From Cunninghamella blakesleeana (Eukaryota; Mucoromycota; Mucoromycetes; Mucorales; Cunninghamellaceae), in NCBI GenBank assembly GCA_017871115.1, contig JAFCIZ010000005.1, forward strand, positions 5,511,501 to 5,575,500: 64,000 bases of DNA, read 5' to 3'. The notes beneath the pieces are model-generated. The model was not told the DNA's origin. It saw only the letters and a program-made list of their open reading frames with translations, and ran no database searches. This document shows positions 1-9,144 of this stretch, piece by piece; within the stretch, counting starts at the first letter, position 1; each line of letters starts with the position of its first letter. Both the position numbers and the translations under genes were made by a program.

Positions 1-598
1 ACAACTCCTTTTATTAAAAGAAGACCCTCTTTTTTATCCATTGAAAATTTGAATACGAGTTCAAATAGTAATAATAATGATAATGGTAATAATAAACAAC
101 AACAAGATTTTTGGATTAAACATCAACATGATCATCAACATAATAATAAAAAACAGCATTCTAAAAATGGATTCTCGTTATTTTATAATAAATTTATAAT
201 GGATCAGCATCAACATCAAAAAAACATGCGTGGCCATGGCGTGGATTTTACTTATTTTCCTCGATCACCTACTTTTGGAAAAAGAATGGAAAAAACCGAA
301 GAAATGATACGAAGCATATGTTTAGATCAACAAGATGCTTTGAATCAACATTTTTCGTTTACTTCCTTATTGAAAAAAGATGATCATTGTTGGGGTATTA
401 TTGATAAAGATAATTATGGTGTTGATTTTACTGTAAGTATTATGTTTATATATACATATATTTACATTTTTATTAATAAATATATAAATATAACTTTATG
501 TACGTATCATTTTTTTGCTTTATCAATAGTCAATGCCTCCACCCAAACCAAAACATTCTTTTAATTATTTACAAAAGCAAAAGAGTTTGTTTTTTTAA
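1..598 (+). CDS. 3' part of an unknown low-complexity protein gene (partial)
   Basis: The reading frame is open from the first base of the window, so the start lies upstream. Two exons are visible: 1-432, ending at a GTAAGT donor, and 530-598 after a TTTGCTTTATCAATAG acceptor. They join in phase 0 and end at TAA 596-598. The visible part has Asn/Gln/His-rich stretches, an Arg-Arg-Pro-Ser motif at its start that could be a basophilic kinase site, and a more ordered segment with the residues YFPRSPTFGKRMEKTEEMIR. The C-terminus is short and basic. I do not recognise a family and give no function. The frame could also begin at an in-window codon, but nothing marks a start there. Confidence 0.6.
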
Positions 599-2040
599 AG
601 AAAAAGAAATACTCTCTTGGCTTATTGATTTTTTTTCTCTTTTCTCTCTTCCTCACACTCTCTCTTTATCGCCTATCTTTTCTTTTTTTTTTTTAAAAAA
701 AAAAAAAAATAATTAATCATCCTAATACTGGTTATTATATATCCAATTTTGTACAATTACCATCCCTCTCCTCCTTTTTCTTTTTCCACCTTCTTTCTCC
801 TTCCAACTATGAAATTTTATATATGTATATATATTTTTGTTTAAAAAAAAATTTATTAGTATAGTAGTAGTATGTTTATAATTATCCTTTCCTCCTTTTT
901 TTTATATATTCCCTCATTGCCATCTTTTTTTATTATATATTTATCCCACCCATATATATATATATATATATATATATTAATTATAGTTTATCCAGCAAAA
1001 TAGTCCAAAAAAGATTTATATATAAATATCATCTTGGTTATTTTACTCTCGAAAAATAAATATCATAAAAAAAAAGAGAAAAAACAATCTATTCCATCAT
1101 TTCGTCAAAATAATATATGACTCAGCATTATTGAATCATAATACATAAATACATACACATTTATGATAATAGAACGAAAACAGTTAATATCGAAACCTCA
1201 TCACAATACATATTTATTTATTGACTTATTTTATTCAAATTTTCTAACATATTATTTTTGAGGATTAATTGATAACAGGTTTCAATACTTGAAGAGAGTT
1301 TTTTTTTAGCATAATATATTATAAATATCAACAATATAGATATCATATACTGAAACATACATCCATCTTTTTTTTTTTTTTTCATTCTTTTTTAATCTAG
1401 TAATAGATCCGAAATATCTCCACTCATCATCATCCATCTACAAACTAATTCTTTTGTTTTTATTTTTTAAAGAGCGAATGCTTGTCCTATTTCACCCGAG
1501 AAATAAGCAAAATAAAATAAAGTATTAAGACTTTGATTATATTTTTAAGATGTAATGAGTTTACTAATGAGAAAAGCATGAGTATAAATAAATAAATAAA
1601 TAAAAAACAGATTTATTATATTATTAAATCTACTAATGAATTGAAACATATCACGTAGATTTATGCGTATATTTAAATCGACCTTGACCATGAGAACATA
1701 TTATTTATATAAAAAAAAAAAGGATATACTAATAACCTATTGTTGGGTTATTTTTTTTTTTTTGATGTTGCACTGATCGGTTTTCTCTTAAAATAATACG
1801 AAAAACAACAAATTAGATTATCTATTTAACATATATCCATGTTTAGACCATTGGAACGGGTGCATAATCAATGAGACTGTGATGTTTAAATAAATAATTT
1901 TTTTAGGGTGAGAATATTTTTTTTAAAAGCGCGTATAAAAAAAATAATTTTAAAAATAAAAAGGGTTCAAATTTTTTTTTTTTCTTCCTTCTTTTTCTTT
2001 CCAATTATTATTTATATTTTATTTTAATAAGCTAAAAACC
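599..2040. other. Spacer and THI4 5' region, no gene seen
   Basis: About 1.4 kb of AT-rich sequence with T and A homopolymers, a TA tract near 954-976 and short TAAA repeats near 1587-1603. I see no coding exon. The last 60 bases before THI4 are pyrimidine-rich, as in many fungal leaders. No second TPP aptamer is present here; the one GGGTGC...TGAGA coincidence near 1858-1874 lacks the rest of the fold. Confidence 0.5.
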
Positions 2041-3162
2041 ATGTCTACTGCAAACTCTACTTCAACAACTACTGTTACTAATCAAGAAAGTTTCCGTCTC
2101 GTTGGTGATTACACACCACCTCTTGCTCTTAATGATTTTGAAGGCTACAAGTTTAAGCCTATTCGTGAATCTGAAGTAAATCGCGAAATGACTAGTCGCT
2201 ATATGACTGATATGTTGGATTATGCTGAAACCGATGTGATTATTGTTGGTTGTGGTAGTGCCGGTTTATCATGTGCATGGGAATTAACCAAAGACCCCAA
2301 AATCAAAGTGGCTATCATTGAACAAAATGTTTCTCCAGGAGGTGGTTGTTGGTTAGGTGGACAACTCTTTTCTGCTATGGTCGTACGTAAACCTGCTCAT
2401 GAATTTTTGAAGGATGTAGGTGTTCCTTTTGACGAAAAGGAAAACTACGTTGTGGTAAAGCATGCTGCTTTATTTACTTCTACCATCATGTCTAAATTAT
2501 TAGCTCGTCCCAATGTGAAATTATTCAACGCTACTGCTGTGGAAGATTTGATTGTCAAAGATAAAAAGGTTTGTGGTGTAGTAACTAATTGGGCTTTAGT
2601 AACTATGAACCATGACACTCAATCTTGTATGGATCCTAATGTTATGGAATGTAAAGTAGTTGTTTCTGGCTGTGGTCATGATGGCCCTATGGGTGCCTCT
2701 GGTGTGAAACGTCTTGAATCTATTGGTTTAGTAGAACCTTTAAAACGTATGCATTGTCTTGATATGAATGCTGCTGAAGGCGATATTGTTAAATATACTC
2801 GTGAAGTTGTTCCCGGTATGGTTGTCTGTGTAAGTGAATAAAATAAAAATGAATTCTATATTTTGGAGATTTTTATTAACTTGATCATGATTATTTGTTT
2901 TTTAGGGTATGGAAGTATCTGAACTTGATGGTGCTCCTCGCATGGTTAGAAGAAATAATAATAATAATTAATGATGGTAGGATTATTTTTTTAAAAAAAA
3001 AATTCTAACACAATTTTTTCTTTTTTTAAAAAAAAAATCATCATGGTGTAGGGCCCTACTTTCGGAGCTATGTTGATTTCTGGACAAAAAGCAGCTTATG
3101 CAGCTCGTGCTTCTCTTGAACGCCAAAGTCAAGCTGGTGGTGAACAAAAGGTTGCCGCTTAA
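2041..3162 (+). CDS. THI4: Thiamine thiazole synthase (THI4), 312 aa, 3 exons
   Basis: Makes the thiazole moiety of thiamine from NAD and glycine, with sulfur taken from the enzyme itself. Exons are 2041-2829, 2906-2944 (39 nt) and 3052-3162, joined in phase. The N-terminus holds the FAD/NAD-binding [13 protein letters not shown] segment (about residues 70-82) and the [11 protein letters not shown] motif (about 100-110). TQSCMDPN places Cys196 at the position of the yeast sulfur-donor cysteine, so this is the suicidal, single-turnover type. [12 protein letters not shown] follows, and [13 protein letters not shown] plus GPTFGAM are split across the last two introns. Length matches fungal THI4 (about 320-350 aa). 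The ATG is the first in frame after a pyrimidine-rich leader. A TPP riboswitch lies 216 nt beyond the stop on the same strand, so thiamine feedback on the 3' end is likely. Confidence 0.97.
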
Positions 3163-3367
3163 ATCCAACGATTTTAAAAAGAAACAAATGAAAAAGGGTA
3201 TTACAAGTATTGTTTGACTATTCTGGGTGTATATGTATATTAAACTTTTGTGTATATATTTTTTAAAAAAAAATCAGGTATTAGTATATATAAAAAACGA
3301 AAATAATTAAAAAAAGTTAAAAAAATGGCTTAAAAATACTTCAAAAAAAAAAATCTTTATTTTTTTC

Positions 3368-3492
3368 ATACAATATTATCACTTGGGGTGCCTCCATTTT
3401 TTTATTTTAAAAAAAAATGGAGTGCTGAGATTATACCCATTGAACGGATCTGTTTAATTACAGCGCACGGATTGTGATTCTTAATATTGTAT
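3368..3492 (+). promoter_or_regulatory. TPP (thiamine pyrophosphate) riboswitch aptamer downstream of THI4
   Basis: All helices of the THI-box aptamer can be drawn. P1 is ATCAC 3378-3382 with GTGAT 3474-3478, extended by ATACAATATT 3368-3377 with AATATTGTAT 3483-3492. P2 pairs GGGT (3386-3389) with ACCC (3435-3438). P3 is a 12-nt arm, CTCCATTTTTTT with its complement ending in ATGGAG. The conserved CTGAGA is at 3425-3430. GAACGGATCTG (3442-3452), a TTAATT loop and ACAGCG (3460-3465) form P4/P5, followed by CACGGA. P4 carries a CG/CG pairing in place of the usual CCU/AGG. It lies in the presumed THI4 3' UTR; no gene follows on this strand for about 7 kb apart from one doubtful short frame. In plants THIC has a TPP riboswitch in its 3' UTR, whereas the well-studied fungal examples are in 5' leader introns. 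Confidence 0.92.
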
Positions 3493-6109
3493 ATATCTTT
3501 TTCATTTAATAAAAACCTTTTATCAATTTATTTAAAATATCGTTTGTGATTTTATTCTATTTGTATGTAAATTTTGAATGATTGAGATTAAATTTTAGAA
3601 TTTTTTCTAAAATGGAAAATTTTTAATTTTATAGTTTTTGGTTGTCCTTTTTTCGCTTATTTTATTCTATACAAGAAAATTATAAATACAATTATAAAGT
3701 GCACTTTATATCATTAATAAAAGCAATGATGATAGTAGTTATCAATTACTATTTACGTTCCTTTGCAAGAGTTTCACTTTTTGATTAAGCAGATTGGAAA
3801 ACTGCTTCAAACCAAAAAAGTCAAAAAAAAAGTAGGAATGTAACCAACAACAAATTTATGAAATAAAAAATACATTATTAGCGATAATTATACCCGTTTG
3901 AATGAGCTCCAATTGAAAAAATAATTCGACCCATTCTCGTTACAAATATTAAAATTGGATCAAAATTACTTTATGAAAATCACCAATGAATCAACCATAT
4001 CCCAATATTTAACCACCACTACTTAACAATAAAAATCACTTTGATAGTCTGGTATTCAATATAAAGCTTGTATTTAGAAATATTAAAATATCTGATTTTC
4101 TACAAAAAAAATACCAGTAAATTAGTTCATGAATTTGCTTTTTTTTATTTTTAATACTTCTCTCTCCCACGAAATAAATGGTTAATGGTTCCTTTATTAA
4201 TATTATATATAAATAAGCTCTTTTTAAAGCATGATAAATGCTTATATGTCTTACTTTATATATAAAAGTCATTTCATAGTAATAAAATGGTATAATTTTT
4301 TTTATTTTATTAATGCCAAAATAAAAATAAATTCTTGGAAAAATTCTCGCTTTAGATTAATATTTAATGACTTTAGATAAAATAAAACAGATATTTTTTT
4401 TCATTCTAAATATAATATGAAGTTGACTTGAAAAAATTGAATGTTTATAGTACATAAAAATATAATTAATCATTTAAAAAACATGATGCTTATAAATTTT
4501 AATATATATATTGTGTGCGCGTGTGTGTATACTATGAAGAAAATTAATATAATAGGTATTCACCATAAGGTATAAAAAATAAAGTCTAGATTTAGTTTAA
4601 GGCATAAAAAAATTAAACCTCAGTCACGGAGATTTTTAGTATTATAGAGAGCCTTTATGAGTAAGAATTTTTTACTACCATTCTTTTGGTTTTTATTTAA
4701 TATCATTATCGTGACACTCTTTTTCAGTTACTATAGATGAATATTAGTTTGATACTATAATGCTTATTGAATTTAATTTGAAAAGGTTGAAAGATTGTTT
4801 ATAAAGTATAATACCATTAATCATTATTGTAATTTATTTATATTATATATGTATAATATATATTTAAAGAAAATGCACGCTGAATTTAGTAAACAGCTAC
4901 TGAAATATAAAAATATAATAGTACGAAAAATAAACACAATCGTAAAGTAAGCATAAGTAGATGTAAATAAAAGTGGAATAGCATATCAGTAATTAGTAAT
5001 AGAATGGCAATCAATAATTTGGCTGTAATAAAAGCGTATAAAAAAAATACGAATCTACAACTTCTTGTTAACTATATAATTGTTTTATTATTGAATATAA
5101 ATATAAAAAAACAGCATGAAAAAATGTATATATTTATATAAAAGTGGAAGAAACAATTAATCGAAAAAATACATACTATAGATGGTTATTATCAAGAAAT
5201 ATTATTATTATATTATACTAGAATGAATTTTTTTTGGAAAAAATAGCCAAGTTGTACTAAATGACAATATAAATAATTAATAGGATGATAATTAACAGAC
5301 ATACACACACAGACTCATACAAACATATATATATTCTGGACACTTTACTTTAGTTAACAGTCAAAAAATTAACCATTAATATCAATATAGAGCAGAGAAT
5401 ACTGTTTATAATTGACCAGTAGAAATTGGCCAATATATCAATGCAATGAGAAACAGCACGTGTTATCAAGTGTGTCCTCGGTTATTTTATGTTGAAGAAG
5501 ATGAAGATGATGGTACTTCAGTTACCAGTTACCATTATTTCTCTCCACATGCTGTTTTAAATCCGGACATTTTTTGTAATCACAAAAAGGTACACAAAAT
5601 ATAAAATAATAATAAGAGTAACAATAATAATAATAACAATTGGATTAGTATAACATTGAATTATTTATATTTTTTATTGATAATATATATATATATATAT
5701 GTATATATGTATATTAACATATATTTATATATAGTGAAAAATGATATAAATAGGAATCTTTACAGCCATTCATTTGCTTTTTTAATATCAACTTTTATTT
5801 TCAAGGACCATAATTAAATAAATAAATAGTAACATTGGATAAAAAGTATTTACCAGTCTATTAAACTTTCTTTTTTTTTTTACACCTATTTAAACTTTAA
5901 TGAATACAATATTTCTATATAATACTTGGACGATCAAAATAATCTAAAATTTATCGTAAATAAAAGAAAAGTAAAAAGGGTATAATAAACTGACGAAAAA
6001 AGAAGAATATAAAAAATTGGACATGTATATATCTTTTTATTGTAATCCTTTTTCTAGAAGTCGATAGAAGCCCCAATATATGTGATGATTGGTCTATTTA
6101 AAGTTAATG
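3493..6109. other. Long AT-rich spacer; only one doubtful short frame
   Basis: Extremely AT-rich. It holds poly(A)-signal-like AATAAA motifs just after the riboswitch (near 3510), a 6-bp hairpin AAGCAG/CTGCTT at about 3788-3809, and microsatellite-like TA tracts near 5684-5702. Apart from the short frame at 5446-5604, annotated separately, I see no supportable coding exon on either strand. Confidence 0.5.
5446..5604 (+). CDS. Possible short orphan frame or first exon, 52 codons
   Basis: ATG-initiated frame of 52 codons in an otherwise stop-dense spacer. Its composition is less AT-rich than its surroundings and the translation looks protein-like, with an acidic patch (VEEDEDDGTS) and YFSPHAVLNPDIFCNHKK. 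An AAG|GTACAC junction at 5589/5590 could be a splice donor, which would make this a first exon, but I cannot find a convincing partner exon. It could be a small gene, a relic of a lost gene, or chance. No family recognised. Confidence 0.25.
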   Translation: MRNSTCYQVCPRLFYVEEDEDDGTSVTSYHYFSPHAVLNPDIFCNHKKVHKI

Positions 6110-6542
6110 TCACCCAATTTGATTTTTTAAATCCAGTGTCTTTGTTGATTTACTTTTTTGAACACGAGATTGACAAATATGGTTAAAGCTTGGATATGTT
6201 AAGGGATTAAACGCCACAAGGGATTGTTCATATATTCTGTAAAAAAAAAAGAGCATCATTATTGGTTAAAAAAATAAATGAAATCCAATAAAAAAAAATA
6301 AAAAAAAAGAAAATAAATATATCGATATTGTAAAACATATAAAACATGTTTGTAAGATTAAATAAAAATAATAATATTAAAATAAATACGTAATTAAGTA
6401 ATAATATAATACATTATGTACTTATATACATTTAAACATTGGATACTAAAAATAATAGTATTTTGATCGGTAATAATATAAAATAGGAAGTTTGGATTAC
6501 TCAATTAAGATCAAGATCGCGGTCATCCATTTTGGAATAAAG
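6110..6542 (-). CDS. Unconnected exon-like pieces downstream of the RhoGEF gene
   Basis: Two segments look exonic. The first, 6501-6542, follows a CTGTTTTTAG acceptor and ends at GTAATC. The second, 6110-6236, follows a TTTTTTTTTACAG acceptor and is open for about 42 codons to TGA. Both are richer in G+C than the flanks. Joined, the only continuous frame reads IPKWMTAILILIEIYEQ and then SLVAFNPLTYPSFNHICQ. However, the phase required does not match the visible donor (GTTAAA) at the end of the RhoGEF reading frame, where splicing gives an early stop. They may be C-terminal exons of that gene with a missed connecting exon, alternative exons, or remnants. Confidence 0.3.
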
Positions 6543-6756
6543 CTAAAAACAGATTGCATTAATAGTTAAAACTAGCCAATAAAATGAAATTTTTTTGAAA
6601 CGATATATATTCAAAAGGCAATAAAGTCGTTTTTATTATTTTCAAAAAAAAAAAAAAGATTGTATATTATATATAATTATGTATAAAGATAATGATATAT
6701 GTATGTATATGTATAAATAAGAATAAATATTTATATATATGTTTTTTTTTTTTTAT

Positions 6757-9144
6757 TTAACTCGTTTTTCTTCGATGGATTTTTTGTGTATTATTCATTC
6801 CCATTGCTAAGGCTGATATTATTTGAACTAGTTTATCAATACTTTCATAATCCTCATTATCCACAGGTGTATGTCTTAAAAGATCTAAAGATTGATATTA
6901 ATAAAAGATTGATTAAAAAATGATTAACTTTATAAAATAAAATTGATCTTCTTAAAAAGATTTACCTTTTAATAATAATAAATATCTAGGGACTCTTTGA
7001 ATAGGTGCAATTAAATAATCTGCTATTCCCATTCGTTTAGATTCTTTTCTGGTCAAATATTCCTGTAAATAGATACACAAGTAAATAAATAAATAAATAA
7101 ATAAAATGTATAAATTTGACACGTAATCATTTTTTTTTTTTTTCGCCACACCCCCAAATATAAACAAATAAACCCAAAAAAAAAAGTTTATCTTTTATAA
7201 AATACATTTCATCACCCATCCATAAACATTTATAAAGAAAATCATATGAAATATATATTTACCTGATTGATACGAAGAACGAAAACATTATTACAAGCAC
7301 GTTTAATGGATTTTGTATTAGATTCATAATGAACAGCGTATTTTAAAAATATAGACCATTCTTCATATAAATTTAACCATAATTGACCTATACATAAAGT
7401 TGCATTATTGTTGATGTTATTATTATAATAAAGCTTATCTTGATGGAATCCATTTAAAATTGTTTCTGATAAATTGATTAAGGAAGATAAATGTGTAAAT
7501 AATAAAGGAATATCATCTGATTTGACTAAGGGATCTTTGGCTTGAACGGCTTCCATTATTGGTTCCATATATCTCTATATTATTTTTAAAAAAAGAAATA
7601 AAATTTAAAATAAAATAAAAAACATGTAGATATTTATTTATGGTGGTTACCTTTTTAGTGAAAACCAGTAATTCATGATATGATTTTTCGGTTGTATAAA
7701 TTTCATTTATAATAAATTTTCTTAATGATAAAGATTTAATATCATCATGAACGGTAGTGAGCTATGAACAAAAAAAACCAAAATAAATAAATATAAAAGA
7801 GTTTCATGATCAGTATACGTATATATATATCTTGATTTTTTTTTTTTTTACCTTTGTACTCGGAATGCTCCGCTGAAATTCTTGTTGTAAAATATGTGTA
7901 ACAGTATTTCGCCAAGCTAAAATAACTTTTTGTTCTTTTTGTTGTTGAGGATCTTGTATACCAAACACGGAGCGAGCGCGCGAAGGTAAGGGCAACGGAC
8001 TTTCAAAGGATGATTTCTTTTTTTGATTATTATTAGTACTTGAATTTAAAATTGGTGAAGAGGGAGTAGAACTGGATTGAGGTTTTTTTCTTCTTTGAAT
8101 ATAACGTTGTTGTTGTTGAAGATGAGAGTAGGGACAATTAATACTTTTAATACGAATAGGATGCATAATTTCTTTTTCTTTTTGATAATTAGTAGTATGT
8201 ACAATAGGTAAAGGTGGAGGTAAAGAAGATGATAAAGGAGATGACAAAGATGGGGTAGGTGTTAGGGATGTTTTGTTGCGAATGGATGGCAATTGATTAT
8301 TTTTTTTGGAATGCCAGCTTGGATGAGGATCATATTCTTCTTCATTAATAATCAAGGATGTTAAATCTTGATGAGGATCTATGATCATGGATTGTCTACT
8401 TGTTGGTGTTTTAATAGATGAGGATCTAGAAGAGTCCTGACTAGATGATGAAGCAGATGATGAAGAAGAAGAAGAATTGGAACGTTGATGCGTAGAGGAA
8501 ATAGAATGAGGATGATCGTTATAATTATCTTCTATTATATTAATGTAATGAGGGAAGTCAATAATGGTAGAATGAGGTCGTGCTGGTAAATGGCTAAAAG
8601 TTCGCGATTGCCGTTGTGGTTGTAATTGATCTTGATCTTGTTCTTGAATGGATGAGGATGAAAATATATATTGTGACAAAGGTCTTTGTCTTTTTATTTT
8701 AGAAGATGGTGAAGATGATTTATGCTGCAAAGTAGGTGAAGTAGATATAGATGATGTATTATGTTCATTATTTGTATTTTTATTAAATGATGAAGTTGTA
8801 TTTTTATTATTTTTTGATAAGATATGAAATGAGAGTGATTTATTATTGTTATTACTTAATTTTTGTTGTTTTTGCTTTTGTTGTTTGTTATTATTCATAT
8901 TATTACTGCTATTATTATTAAAAGGATTTAAAAGAGTGCGACTTATGCTTTGTAATCTACTTAGTGTTGTAGATGGTGATGGTGTTGGGGTTGGTAATGA
9001 ATTAACATTTTTATTATTTGAAGATAATTTAGCTTTTCCTTTTCGTGACAAAAAAGTTTCAGGTTTTGACATTCTTTTTAGTATGTTTGGGGTATATAAT
9101 GATGAAGAAGAAGATGAATAAGATGATGATTTATATGTAGACAT
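6757..9144 (-). CDS. RhoGEF (Dbl-homology domain) protein, 646 aa, 5 exons
   Basis: Predicted guanine nucleotide exchange factor for a Rho-type GTPase, acting in polarity or cell-wall signalling. Exons (minus strand) are 9144-7852, 7761-7651, 7574-7263, 7062-6966 and 6884-6757; phases agree throughout. The first about 415 residues are Ser/Asn/Gln/Pro-rich and probably disordered. The DH domain starts around residue 440 with LRKFIINEIYTTEKSYHELL (conserved region 1), continues with the loop-rich middle, then YLIAPIQRVPRYLLLLKDLL (the diagnostic CR3 helix), and ends in the final helix DLLRHTPVDNEDYESIDKL. No PH domain follows, although most Dbl proteins have one; the frame stops 18 residues after the last DH helix. 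Orphan exon-like sequence downstream (6110-6542) hints that the C-terminus may be longer. The DH call is firm; the specific GTPase is unknown. Confidence 0.85.

Follow-up and report, generated by a model that had tools for sequence, protein, structure and literature searches.

In plant THIC genes, a 5' splice site within the 3' untranslated region (UTR) is held by pairing with a thiamine pyrophosphate (TPP) aptamer as long as TPP is scarce; abundant TPP releases it, an intron carrying the polyadenylation (poly(A)) site is spliced out, and a long, unstable mRNA results (PMC10226581). Few riboswitches are known from eukaryotes, and those of fungi have so far been understood as splice switches in 5' leaders or coding introns, as with the TPP switches of ascomycete NMT1, THI4 and transporter genes (Mukherjee types I-III), which lie in 5'-UTR or coding introns (PMC5882874). 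Here we describe a 64,000-nucleotide (nt) stretch of the genome of the fungus Cunninghamella blakesleeana (Mucorales; assembly GCA_017871115.1, contig JAFCIZ010000005.1, positions 5,511,501 to 5,575,500 of the forward strand; hereafter the window), in which a TPP aptamer (3374-3489, + strand) begins 211 nt past the stop codon of the thiazole synthase gene THI4, together with three further elements found elsewhere in the genome. The whole TPP regulon that we detected lies on the 3' side of its genes: THI4, THI5 and two members of a sugar-transporter family. This position suggests that thiamine acts, as it does in plants, on the 3' end of the transcripts instead of on the leader, where it acts in well-studied fungi.

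Within the same phylum, Vargas-Junior et al. (2024) described three groups of TPP switches, TPPsw-THI4, TPPsw-NMT1 and TPPsw-SUGAR; type I (5' UTR) is named as predominant overall, and TPPsw-SUGAR is placed consistently in the 5' UTR, mostly as type I and in some cases as type III (PMC11683625). The Cunninghamella elements belong to the same three gene classes, and linkage to a sugar transporter, the feature of TPPsw-SUGAR, is found at two of the four (PF00083 genes; not at THI4), but these two lie 193 and 166 nt past stop codons rather than in a 5' UTR. Either they disagree with the published 5' placement or the genus differs. Elements in 3' UTRs are known from prasinophytes and other algae (PMC4260697), and all putative TPP aptamers of diatom THIC and SSSP share that location, although in this other lineage thiamine was reported to be without effect (PMC9544697). 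The only fungal 3'-UTR case named in the text consulted, Postia placenta eIF5B (two gene copies), concerns a gene unrelated to thiamine, and energy minimisation by its authors failed to validate the element; the conclusion of the same paper gives '3' UTR' among the listed locations, with no detail (PMC5882874). A TPP riboswitch 'in all basal fungi' has also been mentioned, its position not stated (PMC4133162). In the literature searched, taken as main texts without supplements, we found no published 3' TPP switch in Mucoromycota, and as far as those texts go the position past the stop codon is new for fungal thiamine genes.

TPP aptamers past the stop codons of four genes

The original prediction had placed a TPP aptamer on the 3' side of THI4, on the same strand, and it is found there by the Rfam model RF00059, which matches over its full length (model positions 1-105) with 46.4 bits and E = 2.2e-7 when 2.2 kb is searched (E = 8.9e-7 for 9 kb). 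The element has stems P1-P5 and the CUGAGA and GCG ligand-contact motifs, the former described as universal (PMC9544697) and the latter described elsewhere (PMC11683625); the P1-P5 architecture, also proposed at the outset, is borne out by the end-to-end match and by covariation with the three other elements. Because 46.4 bits falls below the Rfam gathering score of 54.3, a default Rfam scan of the 64-kb window listed no TPP element. The gathering score is a cut-off that curators set for detection; it does not describe structure. A low covariance score had been named in advance as a ground for abandoning the aptamer: formally the score is low, lying under 54.3, yet we judge it not low in substance. 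By structure, motif and covariation, we regard the element as a TPP aptamer despite the shortfall in score.

Folding adds to this description. A 133-nt segment that includes the aptamer is unusually stable (z = -4.6), with none of 200 shuffles equally stable. Its minimum-energy fold departs from the canonical aptamer. For the THI4 element, the canonical pairs alone give -18.4 kcal/mol and the minimum is -29.5 kcal/mol; such folds may miss a canonical aptamer, since ligand and tertiary contacts are ignored. The minimum-energy fold also predicts an 11-bp extension of P1, the 5' strand of which (3368-3378) pairs with the 3' strand (3482-3492) across a 4-nt bulge, and the limits of 3368-3492 first given for the element enclose this extension beyond the Rfam-defined 3374-3489.

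A search of the whole assembly with RF00059 (31.9 Mb in 12 contigs; E <= 10; 49 of 695 first-look candidates scored) returned four elements only, of 52.2, 46.4 (THI4), 43.8 and 41.1 bits, with E-values from 2.7e-8 to 1.5e-5 across the 32-Mb genome. Reading the gene neighbours of the other three from 10-kb loci, we found the 52.2-bit element 232 nt past the stop of a THI5/NMT1 gene (PF09084), the only gene of this family found in the genome, and the 43.8- and 41.1-bit elements 193 and 166 nt past the stops of two PF00083 sugar-transporter-family genes (L006:5237-6298 and L007:5166-6354, both on the - strand). The two transporters, MFS_C4 and MFS_C5, are 48% identical over 212 amino acids (aa). 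All four elements are on the same strand as the preceding gene and 166-232 nt beyond its stop codon; none occupies the 5'-UTR or coding-intron position of fungal types I-III. The plant-THIC-like position claimed earlier for the THI4 element is thus seen at all four, and the early guess of a Mucoromycota source also holds. This recurrence is the strongest argument that the 3' arrangement is real: if the genome holds the roughly 12,000 genes that we assume, a random spot would fall within 250 nt past a same-strand stop about 5% of the time, so that four of four would be expected, by this rough estimate, about 5 times in a million.

The genes further downstream vary among the loci (Pfam identifies a catalase and a phosphate transporter; the one at L007 was judged by eye), while those upstream are thiamine genes or members of one transporter family. 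Because the downstream genes differ, what the elements consistently accompany is the gene upstream. This speaks against the idea that the element leads a separate downstream transcript or gene and is not part of the THI4 mRNA. A distance of 211 nt is no proof of co-transcription, and same-strand frames do follow two of the other elements: an 87-aa frame (L005:4507-4770, - strand) starts 142 nt past the THI5 aptamer, and at MFS_C4 a frame matching phosphate transporter PF01384 starts 1.6 kb downstream. Pfam, however, gives nothing for the THI5-linked frame at E values up to 1, and past THI4 not one stop-to-stop frame of at least 80 aa starts on the + strand between 3490 and 8827, that is, for 5.3 kb beyond the aptamer, in keeping with the earlier remark that no gene follows closely. 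The aptamer was on this ground rejected as the leader of a gene downstream of THI4, and we consider a separate transcript very unlikely.

The four elements also support one another structurally. In an alignment with P3 loops shortened and the structure set by hand on the THI4 element, 80% of paired cells can pair, and 9 of 22 pairs have two-sided compensatory changes. Covariation scores 0.424, whereas shuffles average 0.156; none of 500 shuffles comes as high, and all six slid controls are far lower. The elements are diverged and not recent copies of each other. CUGAGA and GCG are nonetheless invariant in all four. That the elements merely resemble the TPP model by chance, as their scores under the gathering threshold might be taken to indicate, is hardly credible in view of the genome-wide E-values, the covariation and the linkage to both THI4 and THI5.

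A more serious concern is that the aptamers are conserved but inactive or differently used, like the diatom 3'-UTR elements. All four score under the gathering cut-off, pairing reaches 67% of cells in P3 and 75% in P4-P5, and P1 of the MFS_C5 element is short, weak and set apart from P2; the diatom precedent (PMC9544697) points the same way. The retention of CUGAGA, GCG and compensating pairs in four diverged elements tied to thiamine genes argues otherwise. The scores may mislead as well, as RF00059 often fails on, or misjudges, fungal aptamers with a long P3 (PMC11683625), although only the THI5 element has a clearly long P3 among the four. Overall, we find inactivity or a different use improbable.

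Other scans recovered the same set. A gapped DNA core pattern run over the genome found three of the four elements (the THI5 element misfits it) and no others, with none in the control. With a 15-base core pattern and a tolerance of up to 2 mismatches there were 145 matches, where the reversed control had 75; the three exact matches, which alone were identified, are known elements. A model built from the four elements and run on 294 kb of the genome recovered the four elements it was trained on, plus two weak hits of 19.0 and 14.4 bits. Because the scope of these scans was limited (49 of 695 candidates scored, exact pattern matches identified), an additional divergent element may have been missed. 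The 15-base scan also brought up many identical near-matches across contigs, GTTGACAACATACTC, GCTGAAAATATACTT and GCAGAGAATATACTT, pointing to what are probably dispersed repeat families.

Proposed splicing and other possible routes to control at the 3' end

We infer that the aptamer is co-transcribed with its gene and binds TPP, and that TPP would lower expression through altered 3' pre-mRNA processing. As to the route, we advance tentatively, as a matter about evenly balanced, a 3'-UTR intron that would enclose the aptamer as in plant THIC, by which TPP would lower THI4 expression via 3'-end processing. A 5' splice site between the stop codon and the aptamer, together with a 3' splice site beyond it, would define an intron holding the aptamer. 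TPP binding would alter use of the 5' site, and high TPP would lead to an alternative 3' UTR and hence to an mRNA with reduced stability or productivity. As in plant THIC, the aptamer lies past the stop codon on the same strand, with candidate 5' splice sites upstream of it; the differences are that the host is a fungus, that the genes are THI4, THI5 and transporters in place of THIC, and that the splice switch is a prediction, weak at THI4.

Splice signals were compared with background 3' regions, the 200 (or 600) nt past open frames of at least 200 aa, assumed to be gene ends, in 294 kb of genome. There were 66 such frames, and leaving out 9 that had a strong 5'-splice-like hexamer close to their end gave 57; this number includes both transporter loci and becomes 55 without them, or 52 where 600 nt were required. 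The splice models were built from 311 introns (a noisy set) or from 32 stricter ones, all inferred from open frames. The motif AG/GTA, which forms a 5' splice-site core, is present before the aptamer in all four stop-to-aptamer intervals as opposed to 8 of 55 other 3' regions, and all four contain it in only 9 of 2000 dinucleotide shuffles. The best 5' splice score before the aptamer is equalled in a single background region of the 55 for each of MFS_C4 and MFS_C5, in 6 for THI5 and in 20 for THI4. The predicted aptamer-spanning intron (32-intron model) behaves similarly, being equalled by 1 of 52 regions at each transporter and by 7 of 52 at THI5; we would call it convincing at the transporters, fair at THI5 and unremarkable at THI4. 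Given this gradient, the splice model appears supported for the four-locus set and not for THI4 alone. At one transporter locus (L006), a strong splice-site-like TAG/GTAAGG stands 4 nt past the stop codon.

The THI5 locus also offers a possible link between splice site and aptamer. Its candidate 5' site at -177 is predicted to pair into the free aptamer region at 0.70, the second highest of 226 windows, and its openness rises from 0.12 to 0.35 with the aptamer imposed. A second THI5 site, at -83, pairs at 0.56 and stays closed with the aptamer imposed.

Several points weigh against the 3'-UTR intron. The unresponsive diatom aptamers, mentioned above, count here too. AG/GTA was chosen after inspection, and the splice models rest on 32-311 inferred introns. 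At THI4 itself, 19 of 52 background regions equal the predicted intron, and 16 of 52 (20 of 55 under the looser model) do as well as the candidate 5' splice site (CAG/GTATTA, 3278-3283, + strand), which we hold with low confidence. The 5' site is predicted to pair with the aptamer little or not at all at THI4 (0.10 and 0.00), MFS_C4 (0.03) and MFS_C5 (0.00 and 0.00). When the seven candidate sites are scored as plain duplexes with P4-P5, 16 to 97 windows among 154-220 do better.

An alternative is a 3'-UTR TPP sensor that works without splicing: folding stabilised by TPP near poly(A) signals could shift cleavage and polyadenylation, or the folded aptamer could affect mRNA stability or decay. 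The unremarkable splice signals of THI4 would fit, as would the AATAAA found within 60 nt past the aptamer at three of the four loci, and a P1 longer than the 5 bp of the model in three of the four (THI4 with its extension, THI5 with 9 bp, MFS_C4 with 8 bp), making a compact block close to the 3' end. At THI4 the AATAAA, a possible poly(A) signal, stands 18 nt past the aptamer (3508-3513, + strand), in AT-rich DNA where the motif is common. As 21 of 66 other open-frame ends have AATAAA in a single 60-nt bin 150-210 nt downstream, its presence at three of four loci is unremarkable, and we rejected it as evidence for poly(A) control. A sensor of this kind would also leave the AG/GTA enrichment unexplained, and the characterised eukaryotic TPP switches act through splicing (PMC9544697). 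With splice support at the level of the set only and AATAAA uninformative, we keep the 3'-UTR intron as our tentative proposal and regard control without splicing as rather unlikely.

Origin of the 3' arrangement

It is conceivable, if on the doubtful side, that in Mucorales the entire TPP regulon, both biosynthetic genes and the vitamin transporters, arose on, or moved to, the 3' side, and that thiamine represses through a 3'-UTR splicing or 3'-end switch gained independently of plants. In that case the 5'-UTR placement published for sugar-transporter elements of Mucoromycota would have to be revised, and the transporters would become candidates for carrying thiamine. Their association with 3' TPP elements is also why we flag the two PF00083 proteins of Cunninghamella as candidate importers of thiamine or a precursor. 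Its elements share their aptamer class and both biosynthetic genes with ascomycete types I-III but lie past the stop codon. The Cunninghamella genome provides a compact natural test of whether 3' riboswitch regulation evolved more than once, and a non-plant system in which the mechanism of 3'-UTR riboswitches could be studied. THI4 loci of other Mucorales were sought in two contig collections: none was confirmed in the viral one, and the 12 short matches from the genome collection (28-53% identity) were to bacterial or archaeal records.

The THI4 gene and its surroundings

THI4 occupies 2041-3162 on the + strand, with exons at 2041-2829, 2906-2944 and 3052-3162 (limits read from the sequence) and its stop codon at 3160-3162. 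It matches PF01946 with 326 bits, and the spliced product of 312 aa is identical at 310 of 312 positions to a deposited thiazole synthase of Cunninghamella echinulata (P0001). It is the sole strong PF01946 copy in the genome; four short matches elsewhere reach 24-27 bits, two of them counted above the 26.2-bit cut-off. Intron 2 (2945-3051) has a non-consensus 5' splice site, GTTAGA. Two deposited THI4 models, P0004 of C. echinulata and P0007 of C. blakesleeana, read into intron 2 and end early, and for this reason are probably annotation errors, or else reflect a weak, possibly retained, intron.

With RF00059 there is no second TPP match at E <= 2 in window positions 1-9000, so an additional 5' TPP element on THI4 was rejected for the approximately 2 kb upstream, unlike the leader position of the ascomycete switches. 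The next gene after THI4 has RhoGEF-domain pieces on the - strand (6952-7574), convergent with THI4. At the THI5 locus, the 87-aa frame past the aptamer looks partly protein-like by eye.

The 211-nt interval between stop codon and aptamer (3163-3373, + strand), a putative 3' UTR, contains TGTATATA at 3251-3258, 88 nt past the THI4 stop. The same motif, which we take to be Puf-site-like or poly(A)-efficiency-like, recurs 97 nt past the THI5 stop (L005:5182-5189, - strand). It is thus found in two of the four stop-to-aptamer intervals, compared with 7 of 57 other 3' regions.
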